Shown: piece by piece, positions 1 to 25,808 of the stretch
How positions within the stretch are numbered: position 1 is the first letter of the stretch
How the letters are laid out: the number at the start of each line of letters is the position of its first letter
From: Sedimentisphaerales bacterium
GTDB taxonomy: Bacteria; Planctomycetota; Phycisphaerae; Sedimentisphaerales; SM23-30
Assembly: GCA_028281535.1 (NCBI GenBank)
Contig: JANQJS010000059.1
Location: 1 to 64,000 of the forward strand
DNA length: 64,000 nucleotides
Reading direction: 5' to 3'
The notes under the pieces: generated by a model
Told to the model about the DNA's origin: nothing
Database searches by the model: none
What the model saw: only the letters and a program-made list of their open reading frames with translations
Translations under genes and position numbers: made by a program

Positions 1-3000
1 ATGATGCTCCTACATTTACGACTGTTGGGTTTCCACCGGTTATTTCTAGCACAACGGACATTGTCAGTATTACGCCGAATTCCGCCGTTTCTAAACAAGA
101 TAGTACTTATACCATCAAAGGTGAAAAAGCCGGTGTTTTGAATGTGAGTGTTTCATGGTGCTATGATAATCCTGATCCAGAGATTCCTCCATTCTGTAGC
201 CAGAATATTGTTACGGTGATTGTCAAAGAAGTATTCAATGGTTTTCCTCACAGCTTTTTTACTAATACGCTTTACGAATTTGAACAAGATTTGCAGGCTG
301 GTTTACTCCTTTGTATTGCTGAAGAATTAGAAGGTGAACCGTTTGGTGTTGATATTGAACTTGGATTTACTGACAAACGTTTTGGCACCAATTTTATTAT
401 TGATCCAACGACCATTTTGCCAAATTCATTTGGTTCAGTCGATGCGATTGGAACATTGAATGGATCACAAAATCAACTATTGAGTCGCATTGAAGCCAGA
501 GCTGCGGATGTGGATGGCCAAACCCTGGTAACGATTGATCCTGATTTTTCACCACTAGGTACATCCTCGGTAACCTTGGAATATTTTAATGGCAAAGATC
601 GTGTATTTCGAAAGTCAGGCGTAGGAGTGGATGACAATCCTTGGTTTAGACCCCAGGGAAATATGTTTACATCATGTGGACCTTCTCCTGAAAATGGTAA
701 TATGGATGTCGCGCTTCGATTTAGAGATGGCCCCATCAATATTCGAAATGCCGTGAATGGTGATTATCTTGCAGACCGAATTGTCTATCGTGCAGATGAT
801 CAATCAAATACCATAGGTGGTGTCGATTCATTGGAATTAAGAGCACTTAATGCTCCTTTCTTTAAGTTGAACCAAGAGCGTTTACGAAATGTGAATCGAC
901 AATTTGGCATAAAACATAAAAGCCTTGGCGGAGCGACACTGGCACCCAATGGTGGATTGCATGTTAATAATATCGGTGATAGCGGTGAGGATGGTTTTGG
1001 GATAAATGTAGGTTGTATGCAAGGCCTATTCTTGATTGATATATTAATGAATCCTGCCTTATTGTTTGCTGGCGATATTATTAATGTCAATACATTAGGC
1101 TCGGTCAATGGCCAAACGCGTCAACTCATTAGTTCAATCAATGCAGAGATGGTTGATAATGGCACCAATCAATTTGCCCGTGTGATTCCAGACTTTTCAC
1201 CCGTCGGAGCGGATACCTATCGCATGGATATTTGGAACGGTGATACTTTAATTTCGACTCAAGAAAATGTATCAGGTCCTTGCCTTCGTTTGATTCCACC
1301 TGCATATGCTTGTTATATTTGTGGGTGTGAGCCTGCAGATGAAGGTGGTTTATTGGCTTCAATAGCTGTTCGTGATGGAGAAGCTCCATTGCGTGTCGCA
1401 ACACAAGGTACTGAATTTATTGATGCAACGCGAGTTGATTTCAGACCTGAAAACCCAACGGCGACGGTAGATTTTGTATCCCATTTTAATACTACGCTTC
1501 GTGGGCTACCAAATTTAGCGATTCAAAATGAAGAATTTAGTTATTTCAATACTGATTTATTCTTTAAATTAGCGCTAACGGCCAAAGGGCTTTTGTCGCT
1601 TGATAAAGGATTCTATCGGTTAGAAGATTTTAATACGGATAATTATGATGTCGGATTAGGCTACCGATACGTCGGAGATGATGCCTTTCAAACACAAGTT
1701 AATTATGAACTGGATGATTTAGAATTACGTCATGATGATTCAGGTTTTGGTGTAGATATTCGAGGGGGCGTACCTGGAGATTCTGATTGGCTTCTAGGGC
1801 GTCTAAGATGTGAATATCGGTTAGATACTCATAATACTGTTATTGGTGGTCTCTTTTTTGGTAATACTGGAAATCAAGTAGATGTCGAAGCTGTTAAAGA
1901 TGATGGTTCGATAGGGAAAGTTACAGTTCAAGGTGATTCGTCTGGTGATTTTGTTGCCGGTACTATCGTCGGTAACGAACTGCCAACCATCCGATCTGTA
2001 ACAAGATTAGTACCGCAGATAACAACTGGTGGTGGTATTGCCATTGAATTCAAGGATGAAATTGCCTTGGATACTGGAAATGGTGTTTTACAAGGTAGTG
2101 AGTTACGAATTACACCACAAGTACAACCAGAAAATGTGAATACGATTTCTCAAATTGATTTAACAGGTAAGAATATCGACGAAATCAAAGTGACGAGTAA
2201 AAATACATCCATTATTCCAAAGCCCGCATCGATTATTTCTGCTACACCACTTAAAGGAAATCAAGGTCAGAAAATTGTAATTTTCGGTGAAAACTTTGGC
2301 AATAGCGTGGATGATCTTTGTGTCATTATTATGGATGGAAATCGTTCGATTCCAATTCATGTTGAGGAAGTAACACCAAATATTATTAAAGGACGTTTGG
2401 GAGCTGTACCTCCAGATGCTCAACCTGGTCCCATTATGGTCGGTAAGGGTAAAGGGGTTCGTACTAGCGATATTAATTTCAGCCTTTCTGGCACAACGTT
2501 ACTTGATGATGTCTGGGTCTGGAAAAAAGATCCGCCAGAAAGTGAAGATGCCGCTGGGCCAATTTTTACTGCGTTTCCAATTGGTATCGATCCTAATAAT
2601 CCTGATCCGAATTTTCCGGATCCCAATAATGTGCCACCGCCACCAGATGATCCTAACGTCTGTAAATTATTCAGTGGTGGTCCAACCAATGGACAATTGT
2701 GCTTAACGGTTGATTGTGATTGGCCAGAAGATTCACAGGTGAGTATTTCTGGTCGCATTCGTGACAATGCTCGCAACAAGGGTTTGGATTTATTTGCAGC
2801 ATGTACCGTATTCGATGGTGGACCTTACACCGCCTTTGAATGTGCACAACGCATTTGCGATCTATTACAGTCCGCATGGTTGCAACAAGCAGGGTTTGGT
2901 ATTAATTGTGCTGTGAATGATAATGGCGATGGCACTGCGAAAATTACTGTGACCTTCCCGCCGCCATGTACCATTGATTGGGGTAACCTGACGGTGTGTA

Positions 3001-3845
3001 TTAAATCAACTGGCCAAGGCGACGGTGGCGAAGATCCCAACGATCCGCCACTACCAACCGAAGAACCAAACGAAATTCTACCAAGTAAAATTTCAATTAA
3101 AGCTGATAAAGATCGCCAATCACCATCAGATGGTTTCTCGTTTACGGGAACATTTGATGCAGATGAAAGTGATTTTGTTGGCACACAATTGGTAGCTTTA
3201 GATCTTGTTGGTACGGATCCTATTTTTGGTACATCTGTTACTGTTGATTCGAATAACCTCAAGAAAGGTAAATTCAGAAGCAAAGGTGATGTATCTCTGA
3301 GTTTTGATTTTAATAAAGGGACTGTTGGTGTTAATGCTAAAAATGTCGATTTGAGTGGTTTACAAACGCCATTTAACATTGAGATCGGCTTTGGAGATTA
3401 CTCTGGCACGGCTATTATTGATGATTCTTTCTTTAAGAAGCCGCTTCCGATTTGTCTGATGACGGGTGTGGAAGATTCTTTAGATATTACCAAGCAGAAG
3501 TTCAAGTCTAGCAAGAAAGGATTTTCTTTGTCGTTGTCGGGTGGTATTGCTGCCGCAGATCAAGATCTTGATTTGACACTGGATGATATAACGTTTGAGT
3601 ATGGCGACAATTTCATAGAAACTCTGCCTGCTGGTTCGTTTACTAGTAAGAAGCCGGGTGTTTTTGGATTTAAACAACCTAAAGGTGGTAGCGGAGATAT
3701 CAATGGGTGTACTGTTGATCTGAATAAATGCACCTTTAAGTTTGATATTAAAGATAGCCAGATTCCGCTGGAAAACAGCGGCGATGTTGATTTCTTAATT
3801 TTTTCTGATGGATTTGAATCAGGAGATACCGCCGCCTGGAATTAA
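1..3845 (+). CDS. Large secreted/surface protein, 5'-truncated by the window edge; IPT/TIG domain, Asn/Asp/Pro linker, Cys-rich module, C-terminal DGFESGDTAAW motif
   Basis: The reading frame is open from base 3 (DAPTFTTVGFPPVISSTTDIVSITP...) into the listed ORF at 138, so the true start lies outside the window. TIG-like 'IISATPLKGNQGQKIVIFGENFG'; linker 'DPNNPDPNFPDPNNVPPPPDDPN'; ends FSDGFESGDTAAWN. Paralog of 4294..8361. Confidence 0.85.
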   Translation, partial: DAPTFTTVGFPPVISSTTDIVSITPNSAVSKQDSTYTIKGEKAGVLNVSVSWCYDNPDPEIPPFCSQNIVTVIVKEVFNGFPHSFFTNTLYEFEQDLQAGLLLCIAEELEGEPFGVDIELGFTDKRFGTNFIIDPTTILPNSFGSVDAIGTLNGSQNQLLSRIEARAADVDGQTLVTIDPDFSPLGTSSVTLEYFNGKDRVFRKSGVGVDDNPWFRPQGNMFTSCGPSPENGNMDVALRFRDGPINIRNAVNGDYLADRIVYRADDQSNTIGGVDSLELRALNAPFFKLNQERLRNVNRQFGIKHKSLGGATLAPNGGLHVNNIGDSGEDGFGINVGCMQGLFLIDILMNPALLFAGDIINVNTLGSVNGQTRQLISSINAEMVDNGTNQFARVIPDFSPVGADTYRMDIWNGDTLISTQENVSGPCLRLIPPAYACYICGCEPADEGGLLASIAVRDGEAPLRVATQGTEFIDATRVDFRPENPTATVDFVSHFNTTLRGLPNLAIQNEEFSYFNTDLFFKLALTAKGLLSLDKGFYRLEDFNTDNYDVGLGYRYVGDDAFQTQVNYELDDLELRHDDSGFGVDIRGGVPGDSDWLLGRLRCEYRLDTHNTVIGGLFFGNTGNQVDVEAVKDDGSIGKVTVQGDSSGDFVAGTIVGNELPTIRSVTRLVPQITTGGGIAIEFKDEIALDTGNGVLQGSELRITPQVQPENVNTISQIDLTGKNIDEIKVTSKNTSIIPKPASIISATPLKGNQGQKIVIFGENFGNSVDDLCVIIMDGNRSIPIHVEEVTPNIIKGRLGAVPPDAQPGPIMVGKGKGVRTSDINFSLSGTTLLDDVWVWKKDPPESEDAAGPIFTAFPIGIDPNNPDPNFPDPNNVPPPPDDPNVCKLFSGGPTNGQLCLTVDCDWPEDSQVSISGRIRDNARNKGLDLFAACTVFDGGPYTAFECAQRICDLLQSAWLQQAGFGINCAVNDNGDGTAKITVTFPPPCTIDWGNLTVCIKSTGQGDGGEDPNDPPLPTEEPNEILPSKISIKADKDRQSPSDGFSFTGTFDADESDFVGTQLVALDLVGTDPIFGTSVTVDSNNLKKGKFRSKGDVSLSFDFNKGTVGVNAKNVDLSGLQTPFNIEIGFGDYSGTAIIDDSFFKKPLPICLMTGVEDSLDITKQKFKSSKKGFSLSLSGGIAAADQDLDLTLDDITFEYGDNFIETLPAGSFTSKKPGVFGFKQPKGGSGDINGCTVDLNKCTFKFDIKDSQIPLENSGDVDFLIFSDGFESGDTAAWN

Positions 3846-3869
3846 ATTATTAATTTTGCTCACCTCATA

Positions 3870-3903
3870 GAAGGTCGTTATCGTATTGATAGCGGCCTTT
3901 TTT
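3870..3903 (+). terminator. Rho-independent terminator
   Basis: Hairpin aaggtcgttatc-gtatt-gatagcggcc followed by TTTTTT, just after the stop at 3845. Confidence 0.75.
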
Positions 3904-3907
3904 AATA

Positions 3908-3994
3908 TCCAGAGATATCATAGTTACCGTTGAATTGGAAATCTTCTCCGATGGTTTTGAATCAGGTGATACCGCCGCCTGGATTTTTGATTAA
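3908..3994 (+). pseudogene. Relic 3' end of a third copy of the DGFESGDT paralog family
   Basis: Open frame ...TVELEIFSDGFESGDTAAWIFD* (core 3929..3994) matches the C-termini of the flanking genes (FLIFSDGFESGDTAAWN*, TVELNLFSDGFESGDTTAWTFE*). No start codon or upstream gene body. Followed by its own terminator. Confidence 0.8.
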
Positions 3995-4018
3995 ACATTT
4001 TAGTAAATTGTCGATGAC

Positions 4019-4053
4019 AAGGTCGCGCTAATTTATATTCGCGGCCTTTTTTT
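4019..4053 (+). terminator. Rho-independent terminator of the relic copy
   Basis: aaggtcgcg ... cgcggcc TTTTTTT; resembles the terminator at 3870..3903. Confidence 0.75.
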
Positions 4054-4293
4054 GCCTGTTTGTAAAAACGGGTGGCCTATATAACATGTGATTAGGCCCA
4101 TAGATAAAATTAGTTTGTGCCATCATAAATTATTCCCGTTTTAGATTGTGTTGCTTTGTCTTGACTTAAAAAATGTCCGCTTTTATACTGTCGCACTTAT
4201 GGGTTTATATCTAAACATCAAAGAAAATAATTGACTTGTTAGTAGTTAATTAGAAGAGAGTAACCAGGGGTGGTTTCACAAAGGAGTTCTATT

Positions 4294-7200
4294 ATGCTTT
4301 TCAGGTTAAAAAAACGAAATTCTAAACTTCTGCATGGTTTGTTGGCATGTGCGATGTTATCAAGCTTGTCTGCAAAAAGTTTTGCGGAAGTTACCCCATC
4401 ATTCGAGGAGAGGACCGTTTTTGTTGGTGATTTGATTACTTGGATCTTGGTCGCCAATTTTTTCGATCCAATGTATAGCAAGAAAACCAAATATGATCCG
4501 CCACAACTTTCCAATCCTGCAAATGCGGATTTTGTGACCATCAGTCCCAGTAAAAAACAATCCGGTGCCAGTGCCGAATATGAAATCACTGCGTCAAAGG
4601 CGGGAAGTTATCTTGTTCTTCTGAATTGGGTAAATAATCAGTTTAATTTTACTGGCCAGAGTATTTTGAGTCTGACGGTTGAAGAACCGCCTGTAACCTT
4701 TGATGATTTTATTCACGATATTGTCAATGGTAGCGTGAAGATTGAAAATGATCAGCTCTGCATCACGCGAACCGATTCGAATACTTCTTTCGGTGTGGAT
4801 ATCAATTTTGACCCGACTTCCAATAAGCAATTTAATTTTAGTGGCACGGTCACGCCTGCTGATTTTCAGAATGTTGATATTCCATCGGGGCAATCGGTAA
4901 ACGCAGCATGGTCGACAGCAATTGGGACTGTTGGCGGGACACCCGGATCGACGATCTCAACCTACTTGTTGCAATTAATTGAACGAGATAGCAGTAATAA
5001 ATTGCGTCTCAATCCAACCTCAAGTGTCGGCGGCGATTATCGTATGCAGTTGCTTTGCAATAAAGATGTTATTTTTGAAGCTCCTTGTGTGGAAGAGCAG
5101 GACCTGCCATTCTTCGATCCACCGACAAATTTCAAAATGACTGTTGGGTTTGATGAAGATAACAACTGGGTCGTAGGCATGAGTTTGCCAGATGGCAAGC
5201 AAACCATTTGGCGTGATAGTCCCACCAATAACCAGTTTGAGAATATCAATAAAATCAATTTTATTCTAGATGCTCCAACCAGTACCATCACTGATTTTAC
5301 CCAACTTCAATACCGGGCTGATTATACGAACAGCTATAAAATTTATAGCGAAACATTATCTGCGATCGAAATTTTGAATGGTCTTCGTCATAGAACGCTG
5401 AAAGATGCGACCTTCTATGTCGATCCGCAAACTAATAAAGTCGTCATTGATGCTCCCAGTGCAGCATCAGATAATGGCTTTAAAATTACCACAGGTCAGT
5501 TTACGGGTGTGCAGCGTCTGTTAGCGGGTTATGCCACTGAATTTATGCAACCTGGAAATAGTGCGTCAACTTCATTGGTTGGTACACTGAATGGATCGAA
5601 GAATCAAACGTTAGGTACAGTGGATACGACCTTCTCAGATGATAACGGTATTATTTATGCGGATCTGGGTTTTAACCTGTCGCCTATTGGGGCCACCAGT
5701 CTTCAATGGTTTGTCTACAATGGCGATGATCAGCTTGCCACGGGGACCTCGATAACGCAAGGCCCAAGTATTCAAGCGCTTGCTTTTCAGGATGTCGATA
5801 TTCAATATGGATGTGGTCCCTGGCCAGGAGAAAATGCACCAAACTTAAATGGTAAGGAAACCTTGTTTGCTGGCGATATTTTTGTGAATATCTTTTTCAG
5901 TGATCAACCCGCATTAATCAAACCACCTGGGGAATCTCAGGCCGTTACCGGTGATCAAGTCATTGTCAAACCCGTGGGAGCAGATCCTTCAACGATTAGT
6001 AGTGTGAATCGTATTGAGTGGCTTTTGAATGGAACAGGCAGCAGCTCTGAAAATGAGGGAATCTTGGGAGTTGATCAGCATAGTATTCAATATTTTACAC
6101 CACGTTTATTTGGAACGACCTTTGGTAATGTTAATTATGACATTGATGAAAAACAAGTTCAGGTTCGTGATATTGATGAAGAAAGTTTTTCTGCAGGGAT
6201 TTCATATGATATCAATAATTATTCCCCCAGCGTGACTATCAGTTATGCCTTTGATGATGTAGAGATTGAAGAGGAAGGCGATGGCTTCCAGATTGAATCA
6301 CAAGGGACCTTTAATGACGTGCCTAATACCAATATCGGTTGTGGTTATATTACCTATTCAGGTGGCGACGCTCATTTGTTCGCCAACTTTGCGGGTAATA
6401 CAGGCAACAATGTTCAAATAGATTCATTTTTAAATGGAGTACACACCAATACAGCAACCGTTCCAGGGGGCACAGGTGTGTCTTTGGGGATTTTCAATAG
6501 CGACGTCGAATTATTTGGTACCGCTAAGTATGCACCTGATTTAACCTCAGGGGATTGCATTGGATTTTTCTTTGGTGATAGTGCGACTTTTACCGCGACA
6601 GACAGTACCGTTCTTGTGGGTAATGAGATTCGTGTTCAGCCGAGCGTCCATTCTGGTACGATCAATAGTTACTCTAATATCGATCTTTCGGTGCAAGGAG
6701 ATATTGATCGGTTAACCATCTTGGAAGCGACTGACAGTGATGCCGCTCAAGCTCCAACGATTACGAATGTTTCACCTTTGACCGGTGGTTCAGGGACGCA
6801 AGTGACTATCACTGGAACCAATTTCAGTACCAATAAATTAAATAACTGTCTTTTAATTATGGATGAAGACAACAATCGCTCTGTGCCATTGGATGTATTA
6901 GCGGTTAATGAAACGGGTACTGAGCTCATGGCAGAGCTTGGACCTGTGCCATACGATGTCGGCTCAACAGGGACTGTGATGGTTGGATTAGGCCGAAGCA
7001 CCTTTACGACCATTACAGGTGTTGCTGGCGTCGAAGATGAGACAGGTACCTGGATTTGGGAAAAATTCCCACGGCTTAATAATCCAGATGCGTCATTTGG
7101 CACGAACTTTCTATTGGTTCCTGATATTGATCCAAATGATCCTAATATGCCACCGCCAGATCCGAACATGCCACCACCTGATCCAAATGAATGCAAGCTC

Positions 7201-8361
7201 TTTAGTGGTGGTGTTACCAATGGACAATTATGTCTTACCGTTGATTGTGACTGGCCGGAAGATGCCAAAGTGAAAATGTATGGACGTATTCGTGATAATA
7301 GCCGCAACAAAGGATTGGATACCTTCTCAGCGTGCACTGTATTTGAAGGTGGTCCTTTCTCCGCATTTGAATGTGCTCAAAAGATTTGTGATTTTCTCCA
7401 GGCCTCTTGGTTGGCACAAGCGAATTTTACCATCAATTGTGTGGCTACAGACAATGGCGATGGCACAGCTAAAATTACCATTAGCTTTCCTTCACCTTGC
7501 CAGATCGATTGGGGTAACTTGACGATCTGTGCGAGTCCGTCACCTAAAACCAAAAAGACGGCCGACAACAAGAAGGTAGGGGTTAAGGTTGATAAAGATC
7601 GAACCAGCCCGCAAGACTCATTTAGCTACTCTGGTGAATTTACAGGCACATTGGAAGAGTTTAATGAAGCGGATGATATTGAAGTGATCATTTGCGATAA
7701 TGATGGCGAGGTGTTTTCCGAAACGATCATCATTAGCTCAAGCGACCTGAAGGGAAGTAAATATTCCTACAAAGGCAGTAAAGGTGTTGCAGGTGTTTCT
7801 TCGCTGAGCTTAGATTTTTCAAAGGGTTCTGTTTCAGTAACCGTCACCGATGACCTCAGCGGATTGGATGCCCCGATGAGTGTGAAAATCGAATATGGTA
7901 AAGTCATTATTACAGGTGCCATACCTTCATCAACGTTTAAGAAGCCACTGAGCGTTTGTTTGCAATCAGGTGTAGCCGATACGTTAACGATTGATAAATT
8001 AAAACTCAAAGAAAACAGCAAGAAGGGCGTTTCGTCACTCTCTATACAAGGTGGTATCGCAGCGTTAGATACAGATCTGGATTTTACAACTGAGTCGCTC
8101 ACTGTTGAGTGGGGCACGACATTTTCTGAAGTGCTCAATTCAGGTTTATTTACCAGTAAGAAAACAGGTATCTTCAGTTACAGGCAACCCAAGAGTGGTG
8201 GCGGTGATATTAGTGGGATTACCATTGATTTAAACAAATGTAGCTACAAACTCGATATCAAAAATACCTCGATACCTTTGGATTCAACCGGAACTGTTGA
8301 ATTGAATCTTTTCTCAGATGGATTTGAATCAGGCGATACAACCGCTTGGACATTCGAATAA
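4294..8361 (+). CDS. Large secreted/surface protein; signal peptide, IPT/TIG domain, DPN/Pro linker, Cys-rich module, C-terminal DGFESGDTTAWTFE
   Basis: AAGGAG Shine-Dalgarno before ATG 4294 (the ORF track starts upstream at a GTG). Signal peptide MLFRLKKRNSKLLHGLLACAMLSSLSAKSFA. TIG 'ITNVSPLTGGSGTQVTITGTNFS'. Collinear with the CDS ending at 3845. Confidence 0.85.
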   Translation: MLFRLKKRNSKLLHGLLACAMLSSLSAKSFAEVTPSFEERTVFVGDLITWILVANFFDPMYSKKTKYDPPQLSNPANADFVTISPSKKQSGASAEYEITASKAGSYLVLLNWVNNQFNFTGQSILSLTVEEPPVTFDDFIHDIVNGSVKIENDQLCITRTDSNTSFGVDINFDPTSNKQFNFSGTVTPADFQNVDIPSGQSVNAAWSTAIGTVGGTPGSTISTYLLQLIERDSSNKLRLNPTSSVGGDYRMQLLCNKDVIFEAPCVEEQDLPFFDPPTNFKMTVGFDEDNNWVVGMSLPDGKQTIWRDSPTNNQFENINKINFILDAPTSTITDFTQLQYRADYTNSYKIYSETLSAIEILNGLRHRTLKDATFYVDPQTNKVVIDAPSAASDNGFKITTGQFTGVQRLLAGYATEFMQPGNSASTSLVGTLNGSKNQTLGTVDTTFSDDNGIIYADLGFNLSPIGATSLQWFVYNGDDQLATGTSITQGPSIQALAFQDVDIQYGCGPWPGENAPNLNGKETLFAGDIFVNIFFSDQPALIKPPGESQAVTGDQVIVKPVGADPSTISSVNRIEWLLNGTGSSSENEGILGVDQHSIQYFTPRLFGTTFGNVNYDIDEKQVQVRDIDEESFSAGISYDINNYSPSVTISYAFDDVEIEEEGDGFQIESQGTFNDVPNTNIGCGYITYSGGDAHLFANFAGNTGNNVQIDSFLNGVHTNTATVPGGTGVSLGIFNSDVELFGTAKYAPDLTSGDCIGFFFGDSATFTATDSTVLVGNEIRVQPSVHSGTINSYSNIDLSVQGDIDRLTILEATDSDAAQAPTITNVSPLTGGSGTQVTITGTNFSTNKLNNCLLIMDEDNNRSVPLDVLAVNETGTELMAELGPVPYDVGSTGTVMVGLGRSTFTTITGVAGVEDETGTWIWEKFPRLNNPDASFGTNFLLVPDIDPNDPNMPPPDPNMPPPDPNECKLFSGGVTNGQLCLTVDCDWPEDAKVKMYGRIRDNSRNKGLDTFSACTVFEGGPFSAFECAQKICDFLQASWLAQANFTINCVATDNGDGTAKITISFPSPCQIDWGNLTICASPSPKTKKTADNKKVGVKVDKDRTSPQDSFSYSGEFTGTLEEFNEADDIEVIICDNDGEVFSETIIISSSDLKGSKYSYKGSKGVAGVSSLSLDFSKGSVSVTVTDDLSGLDAPMSVKIEYGKVIITGAIPSSTFKKPLSVCLQSGVADTLTIDKLKLKENSKKGVSSLSIQGGIAALDTDLDFTTESLTVEWGTTFSEVLNSGLFTSKKTGIFSYRQPKSGGGDISGITIDLNKCSYKLDIKNTSIPLDSTGTVELNLFSDGFESGDTTAWTFE

Positions 8362-8382
8362 TCATCAAGAGAATTAATTATA

Positions 8383-8419
8383 AAGGCTGTACTACCAATA
8401 GGTTGTACAGCCTTTTTTT
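8383..8419 (+). terminator. Rho-independent terminator
   Basis: aaggctgtac ... gtacagcc TTTTTTT directly after the stop at 8361. Confidence 0.85.
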
Positions 8420-8508: not shown

Positions 8509-8533
8509 TTGTTGTCATAGTAGAGAGGTGATT

Positions 8534-8914
8534 ATGAAAAAACAGAAACCATCTGATCTTGAGTTACAAATTTTATCCCTGTTGTGGGACAAAGGGCCCT
8601 TGTCAGCTCGGGATATTCTAGAGTCAATGCCTGACGGTAAAAAACGAGCCTATACGACAATCCTATCCACGATGCAGGTCATGGAAAAGAAGGGGATTGT
8701 CTCCCATTCCACTCAGGGCGTTACCCATCTGTTTAAACCAGAAATTACAAAAAAGCAGGTATTGAAACCGTTTATTAAACGTGTGGTATCTGAATTTTTT
8801 TCCGGTAATCCCTCAGCCGTCATGGAGACGTTATTAGATGATGCTACCGTTGATCAGCAAGAGCTGCAGAAGATGAAACAGCTCTTAGATAAAAAATCTG
8901 AGAAAAACAGGTAA
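8534..8914 (+). CDS. BlaI/MecI/CopY family transcriptional repressor
   Basis: KKQKPSDLELQILSLLWDKGPLSARDILESMPDGKKRAYTTILSTMQVMEKKGIV is a typical BlaI/MecI winged helix. ATG 8534 follows GAGAGG. Confidence 0.9.
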   Translation: MKKQKPSDLELQILSLLWDKGPLSARDILESMPDGKKRAYTTILSTMQVMEKKGIVSHSTQGVTHLFKPEITKKQVLKPFIKRVVSEFFSGNPSAVMETLLDDATVDQQELQKMKQLLDKKSEKNR

Positions 8915-8922
8915 ATTTTACA

Positions 8923-11900
8923 ATGGCAGTTTGGCATTCCATTTTAGAGCTTCTCATGGATGAGCATTTACTCTGGACATTAATCCATACCTTATGGCAG
9001 GGCGGGATCATTTCAATAGTACTGCTAATTTTATTGAGTCAGCTGTCTTCAGAAAAAACCACATTGAGATATTTATTAAATCAAGGTGCCATGTATTGTA
9101 TTGTTCTAGCAGCATTTTTCACTTGGAACATCCTTAATTATCAATCTTCGAATGCCCAGGATACTACCACAAATGAGGTTTCTTCTGCGGCGGTTGATTC
9201 AGATCCTTCGCCAAGTGAAAGCATGACTGTGAGTCCCTTAAATGATAACCTTATTATAGAACCACCTTCACAAAAGCAAGTAGATGATTATTCCTGGCAG
9301 AGCATCTGTATGATTGTGTGGTGTTTGGGTGTCTGTTTGATGTTACTTCGACTGGCATTTCGAATCCATGGTAGTCAAAAGTTGGTTCGACAATGTCAAC
9401 CACTGGACAATCCACAGATTTCAGAATTAATCGAGTCCATATGCCAGATATTGCAGATTCGTCGTAAAATCACTGTATTCGTTGGTTCACATATTCGCAT
9501 GCCGGGCGTGGTTGGGTTTGTGCGTCCAACGCTGCTATTGCCGGTTTCCATTTATAGTGGCATTCCCATCAAAGATATCGAGGCGATGCTGGCACATGAA
9601 TTGGCCCATATTAAACGCCATGATTACTTGCTGCATTTTGTGCAAATGCTCATAGAATCGCTGCTCTTTTTTAATCCTTGGGTTTGGTGGATTAGCCGTC
9701 AAATAAATTTTGAGCGTGAAGCCTGCTGTGATCAGATGGCTTCCAAAATTATAGGTCATAAGCAAACCTACGCTGAATCTCTCATTGCCTGGTATGAGCG
9801 AGCCTTAACGGGCGACAAATTGCCAGATAATATCGTTATGGCATTTTCAGGATCCAATAAAACTCATTCCATGCTCGAACGTGTTCAACGGCTTTTAACG
9901 CCCAAATATCAACCCATCTTGAAATTATCGTGGATGAAAACGGTTTCGATATTTTTGGTATCGTTTCTATTATTAACAGGTCTATACCAAGCCAGCCATG
10001 TGGCTGTAGCCGTAGCGGGTCGTTGGCTAACACCTCAAGAACGTGTTGCTCTTATAAAAGAAATCGGCAAGGAAGTTGGTGAACAGTATAGTCTTAATGA
10101 TTTGGATGATGATAGACAAGTAATATTTTCTGGAACAATTAATGCCAAATTTCCATCGGATATTCCAACAGAGCATTGTAATTGCGATATTAGTGTACGC
10201 GTAAGACGACATCATTCGAGTGGATCCTATGGCTATGGGGTCGAATATGGAGAGCCATTTAATATTCAATCACCAGCGGGTGTAACTAATTTGGTTGTTA
10301 AATGCGATGGTTTTTCTCCAAAAGTATTTGAGACAGTTTATACTGAGCCCAATGATGTGATAGATAATCTTGTCATTGAATTAGTCAAAGGAGATTCAGG
10401 GAAGATCTTGTTTCTAAATGAAGATGATCAATTTATTCCTAATGTTTCGATACTAGGTGGTTTTCAATTAATTCCAAATACGCTATCTCATACTATTGTT
10501 GAAAATAATATTAAGAATGGGCATGTTGATATTTTGGATGCCGTTGGAGAGACGCTCACGTTACATGTCCTTGCGCCAGGTTATGAACATGATATGCGTA
10601 AAAACATAAAATTAGAATTAGATAAGCCCTATGTCTGGTATTTGAAAAAGGCTGAACCGCTTGAGTTTCTTATCACAGATGAACATACCAGAAAACCTAT
10701 TGAAAATGCTCAGGTTCGGTTTGTTTCAGTTATGAATGAACCTGGAACCTGGATTGCGCCGCTAGAAAATGATCACGATTATGATAGCTCTTTTGGTATT
10801 ATGGCAACAACCGATCAATATGGGAAATGTAGGGTAGATTTCTTGAAGAAAGAGGATCGCTATAAGTTATTTGTCTGTGCCGAAGGATATGAATATAAAT
10901 TTCTTGAAGATGTGACGGTGTCAGATCGACAAAAAATGATTTCCCTGGGAATGCCTTTAGTGATAAAAGGTGTGATTGAAACGGATGAATCATATGAAGA
11001 TTTAGAATCAAAAGAAGTTCACTATACAAATGTACATTACAGCAATGAAAATCAATCAAATGTATCATCTGGCTCTAAAGTCAAACTTGAGAATAAAGAT
11101 GGAAAAATATCTTTTGCGATTAACGATCATCTTTGGGGCGAAAAAATCAATGTGAGATATGCTGGTCAGCGGCAGGTCGTATATCTTGATGATTCTGACT
11201 CGCATTGTGTTGTATTTGAACACAAAAAAAATAACCCATTAAAAACTCGAGAGGTCGTTTTTAAATTTGATATGTATGATGAAACGATAGATCCTGAAGG
11301 TTGGATTCGTATTGATTACATCACTCCTAAAATGAAAAAGAATCAACAAGGAATGGTTCCTAAATGGCTTTCCATAAAAAATGGGATGGCAAAAATTGAT
11401 TTACCCATACCTTGTTATCTACAGTATAGTATTGATTATTCTTATGGGAAAAAGCCAATAGGCTTTTGGTTTAATGACCTGGACTGGCAAGATAAAATCT
11501 TTGTTGATCAAAACGATGACCCTAAAGAAATCTATATAAAAACATATCCAGCGGGATCTATTTATGGCAGTATTCCTCGGCCAGATAATGATAACCAACA
11601 TAACCAGATTAGCTTGTCTTTAAAAACAATAGATAAACCTGTGCATTTGAGTGAACAGTCTGACTATCATTTTGATCAAAATAATATCGATGCCGTTTTG
11701 TCTAAAGAGTTGGATAAAGTAAAGTATCATTTCGGAGCCATTCCACTAGGTGGGCGATATGTGATCATTGCAAAGCAAGGGAAAATGTTTGTGACATCAG
11801 AACCAATTGTTTTGGATAAAGAATATTCGGTTCGACAAGTCGATTTTGTTTTTCCTGAACCCCAGACCTTGAAAGGAAGGGTTTATCTACCAGATGGGCT

Positions 11901-12426
11901 ACCCGCTTTTCAAGCAATGGTAAAAATTTCTGCAAATGTCAATGTTTATGGTGGACATTCTTATGGTATGCTACCTATTAAAACAGATCTTCAAGGGCGT
12001 TTCGTTATTGAGTCGGTGAATACTGATTTTCCTGGAGATTATACACTTGAGATTAAGCAGCCAGGCTATCAAGTGGTTCAGAAAAAAGTTAAGTCATTAG
12101 ATCAACCGGTTGAGATTCATTTAAAGAAAGGCCATGTCTTTACCGGGAAGATTCTCGATCATCATACTGATCGTCCAATTGTCGGGGTTCAAGTAACTGG
12201 TTATGATGATAAGTATCGTTGGGTTGAGTCCGATCATGTAACAAATCACAAGGGGGAATTTGTATTCTCAACTTTAGATGATAAAGAGTATCAAATTCAG
12301 TTTTCACAAGTAAGATCAATTCATTCTCATACTATGAAAATAAGTCCGGGCAACACATCCCCACAAATATTTTATGCTGTGATTCCTGATTGGGCGTATG
12401 GCGTGCGTTTAGGTGATAAAAATTAA
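8923..12426 (+). CDS. M56 (BlaR1-like) membrane metallopeptidase with long C-terminal extension of carboxypeptidase-regulatory-like/Ig-like repeats
   Basis: HELAHIKRHDYLLHFVQMLIESLLFFNPWVWWISRQINFEREACCDQMA (HExxH, M56), N-terminal TM helices; about 800 aa C-terminal region with segments like 'LKGRVYLPDGLPAFQAMVKISANV', 'FTGKILDHHTDRPIVGVQVTGYDDK'. Confidence 0.88.
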   Translation: MAVWHSILELLMDEHLLWTLIHTLWQGGIISIVLLILLSQLSSEKTTLRYLLNQGAMYCIVLAAFFTWNILNYQSSNAQDTTTNEVSSAAVDSDPSPSESMTVSPLNDNLIIEPPSQKQVDDYSWQSICMIVWCLGVCLMLLRLAFRIHGSQKLVRQCQPLDNPQISELIESICQILQIRRKITVFVGSHIRMPGVVGFVRPTLLLPVSIYSGIPIKDIEAMLAHELAHIKRHDYLLHFVQMLIESLLFFNPWVWWISRQINFEREACCDQMASKIIGHKQTYAESLIAWYERALTGDKLPDNIVMAFSGSNKTHSMLERVQRLLTPKYQPILKLSWMKTVSIFLVSFLLLTGLYQASHVAVAVAGRWLTPQERVALIKEIGKEVGEQYSLNDLDDDRQVIFSGTINAKFPSDIPTEHCNCDISVRVRRHHSSGSYGYGVEYGEPFNIQSPAGVTNLVVKCDGFSPKVFETVYTEPNDVIDNLVIELVKGDSGKILFLNEDDQFIPNVSILGGFQLIPNTLSHTIVENNIKNGHVDILDAVGETLTLHVLAPGYEHDMRKNIKLELDKPYVWYLKKAEPLEFLITDEHTRKPIENAQVRFVSVMNEPGTWIAPLENDHDYDSSFGIMATTDQYGKCRVDFLKKEDRYKLFVCAEGYEYKFLEDVTVSDRQKMISLGMPLVIKGVIETDESYEDLESKEVHYTNVHYSNENQSNVSSGSKVKLENKDGKISFAINDHLWGEKINVRYAGQRQVVYLDDSDSHCVVFEHKKNNPLKTREVVFKFDMYDETIDPEGWIRIDYITPKMKKNQQGMVPKWLSIKNGMAKIDLPIPCYLQYSIDYSYGKKPIGFWFNDLDWQDKIFVDQNDDPKEIYIKTYPAGSIYGSIPRPDNDNQHNQISLSLKTIDKPVHLSEQSDYHFDQNNIDAVLSKELDKVKYHFGAIPLGGRYVIIAKQGKMFVTSEPIVLDKEYSVRQVDFVFPEPQTLKGRVYLPDGLPAFQAMVKISANVNVYGGHSYGMLPIKTDLQGRFVIESVNTDFPGDYTLEIKQPGYQVVQKKVKSLDQPVEIHLKKGHVFTGKILDHHTDRPIVGVQVTGYDDKYRWVESDHVTNHKGEFVFSTLDDKEYQIQFSQVRSIHSHTMKISPGNTSPQIFYAVIPDWAYGVRLGDKN

Positions 12427-25778: not shown

Positions 25779-25808
25779 AAAAGGCCGAAATTAGTATTTC
25801 GGCCTTTT
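25779..25808. terminator. Bidirectional terminator between convergent genes
   Basis: AAAAGGCCGAAA-ttagta-TTTCGGCCTTTT with flanking A and T runs. Confidence 0.85.

Follow-up and report, generated by a model that had tools for sequence, protein, structure and literature searches.

The youngest pseudogenes of Salmonella are reportedly deleted quickly (Kuo and Ochman 2010, PMC2916853). The element analyzed here, an orphan tail in the form of a scrap of approximately 70 to 90 bases between two related neighboring genes, is like a bacterial pseudogene remnant in being a gene fragment with neither start codon nor body beside intact paralogs. It differs in that approximately 22 to 29 codons are left, that these codons still look constrained as coding sequence, and that the genomes searched yielded no intact ortholog to attest the loss of the gene. 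A second likeness is to tandem paralog arrays that expand and contract: two full-length neighbors are present at this locus and a four-gene array lies elsewhere in the genome. However, an unequal crossover between the homologous tails of neighboring genes fuses them into a single gene that ends in a single tail; a spare tail with its own terminator, such as the one found here, would not remain.

The tail also resembles C-terminal sorting tags of the PEP-CTERM type, which likewise are short conserved motifs at the C-terminus of a protein. In contrast to such tags, the motif here aligns with the ordinary last residues of a C-terminal domain and is confined to one locus. A sorting tag would be expected in many unrelated proteins, whereas the codon pattern for DGFE-x-G-[DN] had 3 matches in the 4.44-Mb genome, all at the locus (reversed-pattern control, 0), and the sorting tag was rejected. 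DGFESGD was not found in print in the literature searched.

The two neighboring genes and their family

The window analyzed is a stretch of 64,000 nucleotides. Its first feature is the 3' part of an upstream paralog, gene 1 (1 to 3845), which is followed after a 448-bp spacer by a downstream paralog, gene 2 (4294 to 8361, 1355 aa); these and all features of the locus given below are on the forward strand. From the sequence and the open reading frame list, gene 1 ends in FSDGFESGDTAAWN and a stop codon at 3845 (SDGFESGDTAAWN in the shorter form), and gene 2 ends in FSDGFESGDTTAWTFE and a stop codon, also cited as TVELNLFSDGFESGDTTAWTFE or SDGFESGDTTAWTFE. Gene 1 starts on the preceding contig, C54, the end of which (C54:97437-97535) is identical to positions 1 to 99 of the window. 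Joined across this 99-bp overlap, gene 1 has 1347 codons and an N-terminus that, judged by eye, is like a signal peptide.

Genes 1 and 2 are homologous along their full length (36% identity), whereas the likeness of their relatives is limited to the C-terminal 250 residues, approximately. Orthologs of genes 1 and 2 were absent from 12 genomes of the same family, approximately 160 genomes of the same order, the GTDB contig collection, and IMG/VR, where the shared C-terminal domain alone was found; no relative with a third copy was found among these genomes, which lack orthologs of the two genes. An alignment with nine further paralogs of the C-terminal domain from this genome placed FSDGFESGDTAAW at the ordinary C-terminus of the family, as in SSDNFSATDTIIF. 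Four genes with the same domain form a tandem array with short gaps on another contig (C45:57552-66754, or L032:3553-12755). No orphan tails were seen by eye in the approximately 110 bases past the stop codons of other paralogs, including those of this array. A structure model of the domain was mostly beta but of low confidence (mean pLDDT 51.8, below 50 in the tail) and was not used, and a search of solved structures returned no match.

Two other observations concern these genes. One is a block of approximately 115 residues, several of them cysteines (..LCLTVDCDWPED..GRIRDN.RNKGLD..), encoded at approximately 7190 to 7540 in gene 2. Its identity to the aligned block of gene 1 is about 60-84% in bins of 25 residues, far above that of the remainder of the two proteins, and a search of the relatives did not find it. 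The other is that the region adjoining gene 2 downstream (8528 to 12426) encodes, by eye, a BlaI/MecI-like repressor and, directly after it, a large M56 (BlaR1-like) peptidase whose C-terminal part is long.

The orphan tail and its terminator

The original prediction was that the gap between the paralogs has no gene body yet still encodes a tail in frame, and this was borne out. Positions 3926 to 3994 encode TVELEIFSDGFESGDTAAWIFD followed by a stop codon, as identified by alignment and by the genome motif search, with no usable start: the frame is open only from 3893 and has no ATG, and a TTG at 3935 would give 19 codons. A tblastn search of the 448-bp spacer for remnants of a gene body returned nothing convincing, and neither did a comparison of the regions upstream of genes 1 and 2 for similarity. 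The tail had been proposed to start at 3908; however, clear homology begins only at approximately 3926. Possible extra codons of the relic at 3905 to 3925 (ISRDIIV, compared to IPLDSTG and IPLENSG) are suggested by in-register similarity of 9/21 identities, which approximately 6% of background windows equal.

The orphan tail was significantly homologous to the 3' ends of both intact genes. Local alignment of gene 1 and the orphan matched 3786 to 3903 with 3929 to 4052, stop codon and terminator included, with a score of 94 (shuffled sequences: mean 23.0, sd 3.7, maximum 38). A 6-nt in-frame gap just before the stop codon leaves the tail of gene 1 (3783 to 3845, DVDFLIFSDGFESGDTAAWN and stop) 2 codons shorter than the relic. 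The single-base difference claimed for a 28-nt core was verified (3813 to 3840 compared to 3956 to 3983). The end of gene 2, for which an alignment had been proposed, showed homology at 8293 to 8365 (78%) with a score of 87 and a shuffle maximum of 33. A match falling to chance outside the core would have spoken against the original prediction; similarity stayed above chance on the coding side, whereas the stretch between stop codon and terminator was at chance level when gene 1 and the relic were compared (216 of 500 shuffles did as well).

The orphan shares features with each neighbor. It is like gene 2 in TVEL.. and in W-x-F-[DE] before the stop codon, where gene 1 differs, and like gene 1 in GATACCGCCGCCTGGA and in its terminator. 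Its ending, -IFD and stop, resembles those of other family members (-YNFD, -ITLD, and -VELD, each followed by stop). One scenario is a recombination patchwork, in which a paralogous tail and terminator were inserted, or the 3' end of gene 1 was swapped and its former end, displaced downstream, is what now appears as the relic. Gene 1 has the end that is shorter by 6 nt and carries the most amino acid changes while the orphan retains the family-like ending, and an exact 16-nt patch is common to both, as this scenario would have it. However, it requires an extra event and a donor, and the genome has no other DGFESGD-type tail; we regard it as unlikely.

The relic was also predicted to have its own terminator similar to that of gene 1, and the sequence agrees. 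Alignment, pattern search, and folding placed a terminator-like hairpin at 3871 to 3903 behind gene 1 (AAGGTCG...GCGGCCTTTTTT) and a homologous one at 4019 to 4052 behind the relic. Both sites have a hairpin and a T run, as in a putative intrinsic terminator, and both fold, at -18.3 kcal/mol (z -6.5) for gene 1 and a less stable -12.6 kcal/mol (z -2.8) for the relic. Neither was listed by a simple scan for a terminator consensus. The signature AAGGTCG-N-CGGCCTTTT had 3 matches in the genome, 2 of which are those behind the tail of gene 1 and the orphan tail. By folding, gene 2 has a terminator-like hairpin at 8383 to 8418 of a type other than AAGGTCG. A promoter-like site (TTGACT-17-TATACT, consensus match only) lies between the relic and gene 2 at 4161 to 4189. 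Elsewhere in the window, at 25779 to 25808, is a near-perfect hairpin that resembles a terminator in both directions and reads AAGGCCGAAAT...ATTTCGGCCTTTT on either strand.

The longest exact words common to the tails are only 11-17 nt, which bears on two further scenarios. The orphan tail could be an assembly artefact, as there is a contig break inside gene 1 and the assembly is fragmented (67 contigs) with 99-bp overlaps at contig ends. However, one-to-one overlaps of exactly 99 bases join 23 pairs of contig ends; the break in gene 1 is one of them and hence ordinary, and it was rejected as a sign of local heterogeneity because such breaks are generic for this assembly. Since the exact words that the tails have in common fall far short of 99 bases, a de Bruijn assembly at a word length of approximately 99 would not be expected to confuse them, and an artefact is extremely improbable. 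The same words are short for homologous recombination, which weighs against the orphan tail still having a function, such as that of a maintained silent 3' cassette that recombines with either neighboring gene and would thereby vary the C-terminal end of a giant secreted protein. The intact frame and constrained substitutions are what a cassette would show, but the open frame has no ATG, terminator-like hairpins flank the tail, and no variants were seen; we give this scenario very little credence.

Substitution pattern in the three tails

Changes unique to one tail were distributed unequally. The relic had 3, all synonymous. Gene 1, by comparison, had 6 nonsynonymous changes and 1 synonymous change, and gene 2 had 4 nonsynonymous and 2 synonymous changes. 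In this small comparison of 22 codons, dN/dS (NG86) was 0.126/1.36 between the relic and gene 2, 0.165/0.75 between the relic and gene 1, and 0.274/0.577 between genes 1 and 2, so that the ratio of the relic to each neighbor was lower than that of the neighbors to each other. Under neutrality, three unique changes would all be synonymous with p of approximately 0.013. Were four changes to fall neutrally in the 39-nt core, all would be synonymous with a probability of 0.002, a value that overstates the contrast, as some of the four differences perhaps arose in gene 1 under selection.

By these comparisons, the orphan is the most constrained of the three tails. Neutral DNA around it has diverged far, because the stretch between stop codon and terminator is at chance similarity. 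Divergence of the coding type, which points to a past within a complete gene, was thus found in the orphan tail, albeit in small numbers. Because its unique changes are synonymous, its dN/dS is the lowest, the noncoding stretch has drifted, and the ending -IFD and stop has been kept, the orphan tail most likely spent most of its history within a working protein-coding gene.

The same pattern bears on a simpler origin, a short tandem duplication. Gene 1, or its ancestor, would have had a unit of approximately 143 bp, made up of its last 28 or so codons, stop codon, and terminator, copied head to tail by slippage; the copy would have been noncoding since, and a third gene would never have existed. 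The spacing from tail to tail is 143 bp, the homologous block spans the stop codon and terminator in both copies, and the weak in-register similarity to 3905, if real, brings the relic to abut the end of the first terminator, as a head-to-tail duplication of this length predicts. However, a noncoding copy should change fastest, yet every change unique to the orphan is synonymous and the lowest dN/dS values are those of the orphan; its codons were kept while the stretch between stop codon and terminator drifted to chance; and it is like gene 2 at residues where gene 1 differs. A short duplication therefore fits less well than a lost third paralog and, although possible, is doubtful.

A lost third paralog as the probable origin

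The original prediction combined a relic of a third paralog with unequal recombination in a tandem array. Its first part is the best-supported explanation of the locus, through constraint at the protein level and the mixture of features of genes 1 and 2. The second part was not supported in its strict form. The orphan tail stands apart from gene 1, behind the stop codon and terminator of gene 1 itself, and neither a junction in homologous sequence nor a hybrid gene was found. As a homologous crossover leaves a single tail, a non-homologous deletion would be needed for a second tail and terminator to remain.

We put the probability at roughly two in three that the orphan tail is a non-functional 3' remnant of a third tandem paralog that stood between genes 1 and 2. 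We counted in favor the homology to both neighbors, the motif found at this locus only, the duplicate terminators of a rare type, and the tandem arrays of the family elsewhere. Counted against it were the lack of any trace of a body in the spacer, the failure to find a relative with a third copy in the genomes searched, the small numbers of substitutions, and the possible extension to 3905. The remnant would comprise no fewer than 22 terminal codons of the lost gene, together with its stop codon and terminator. The body and 5' region of this gene may have been removed by a non-homologous deletion, probably fairly recent and mediated by microhomology or slippage. One end point of this deletion would lie at the terminator of gene 1 or just past it, and the other no more than approximately 25-30 codons from the end of the lost gene.

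Such a remnant would be an ordinary kind of genome debris that leaves general views unaffected. It would also be a neat small example of the last codons and terminator of a gene outliving its body. For the family, the orphan tail suggests that the tandem array has changed in copy number, and it would be useful mainly as a marker for a third gene in related strains.
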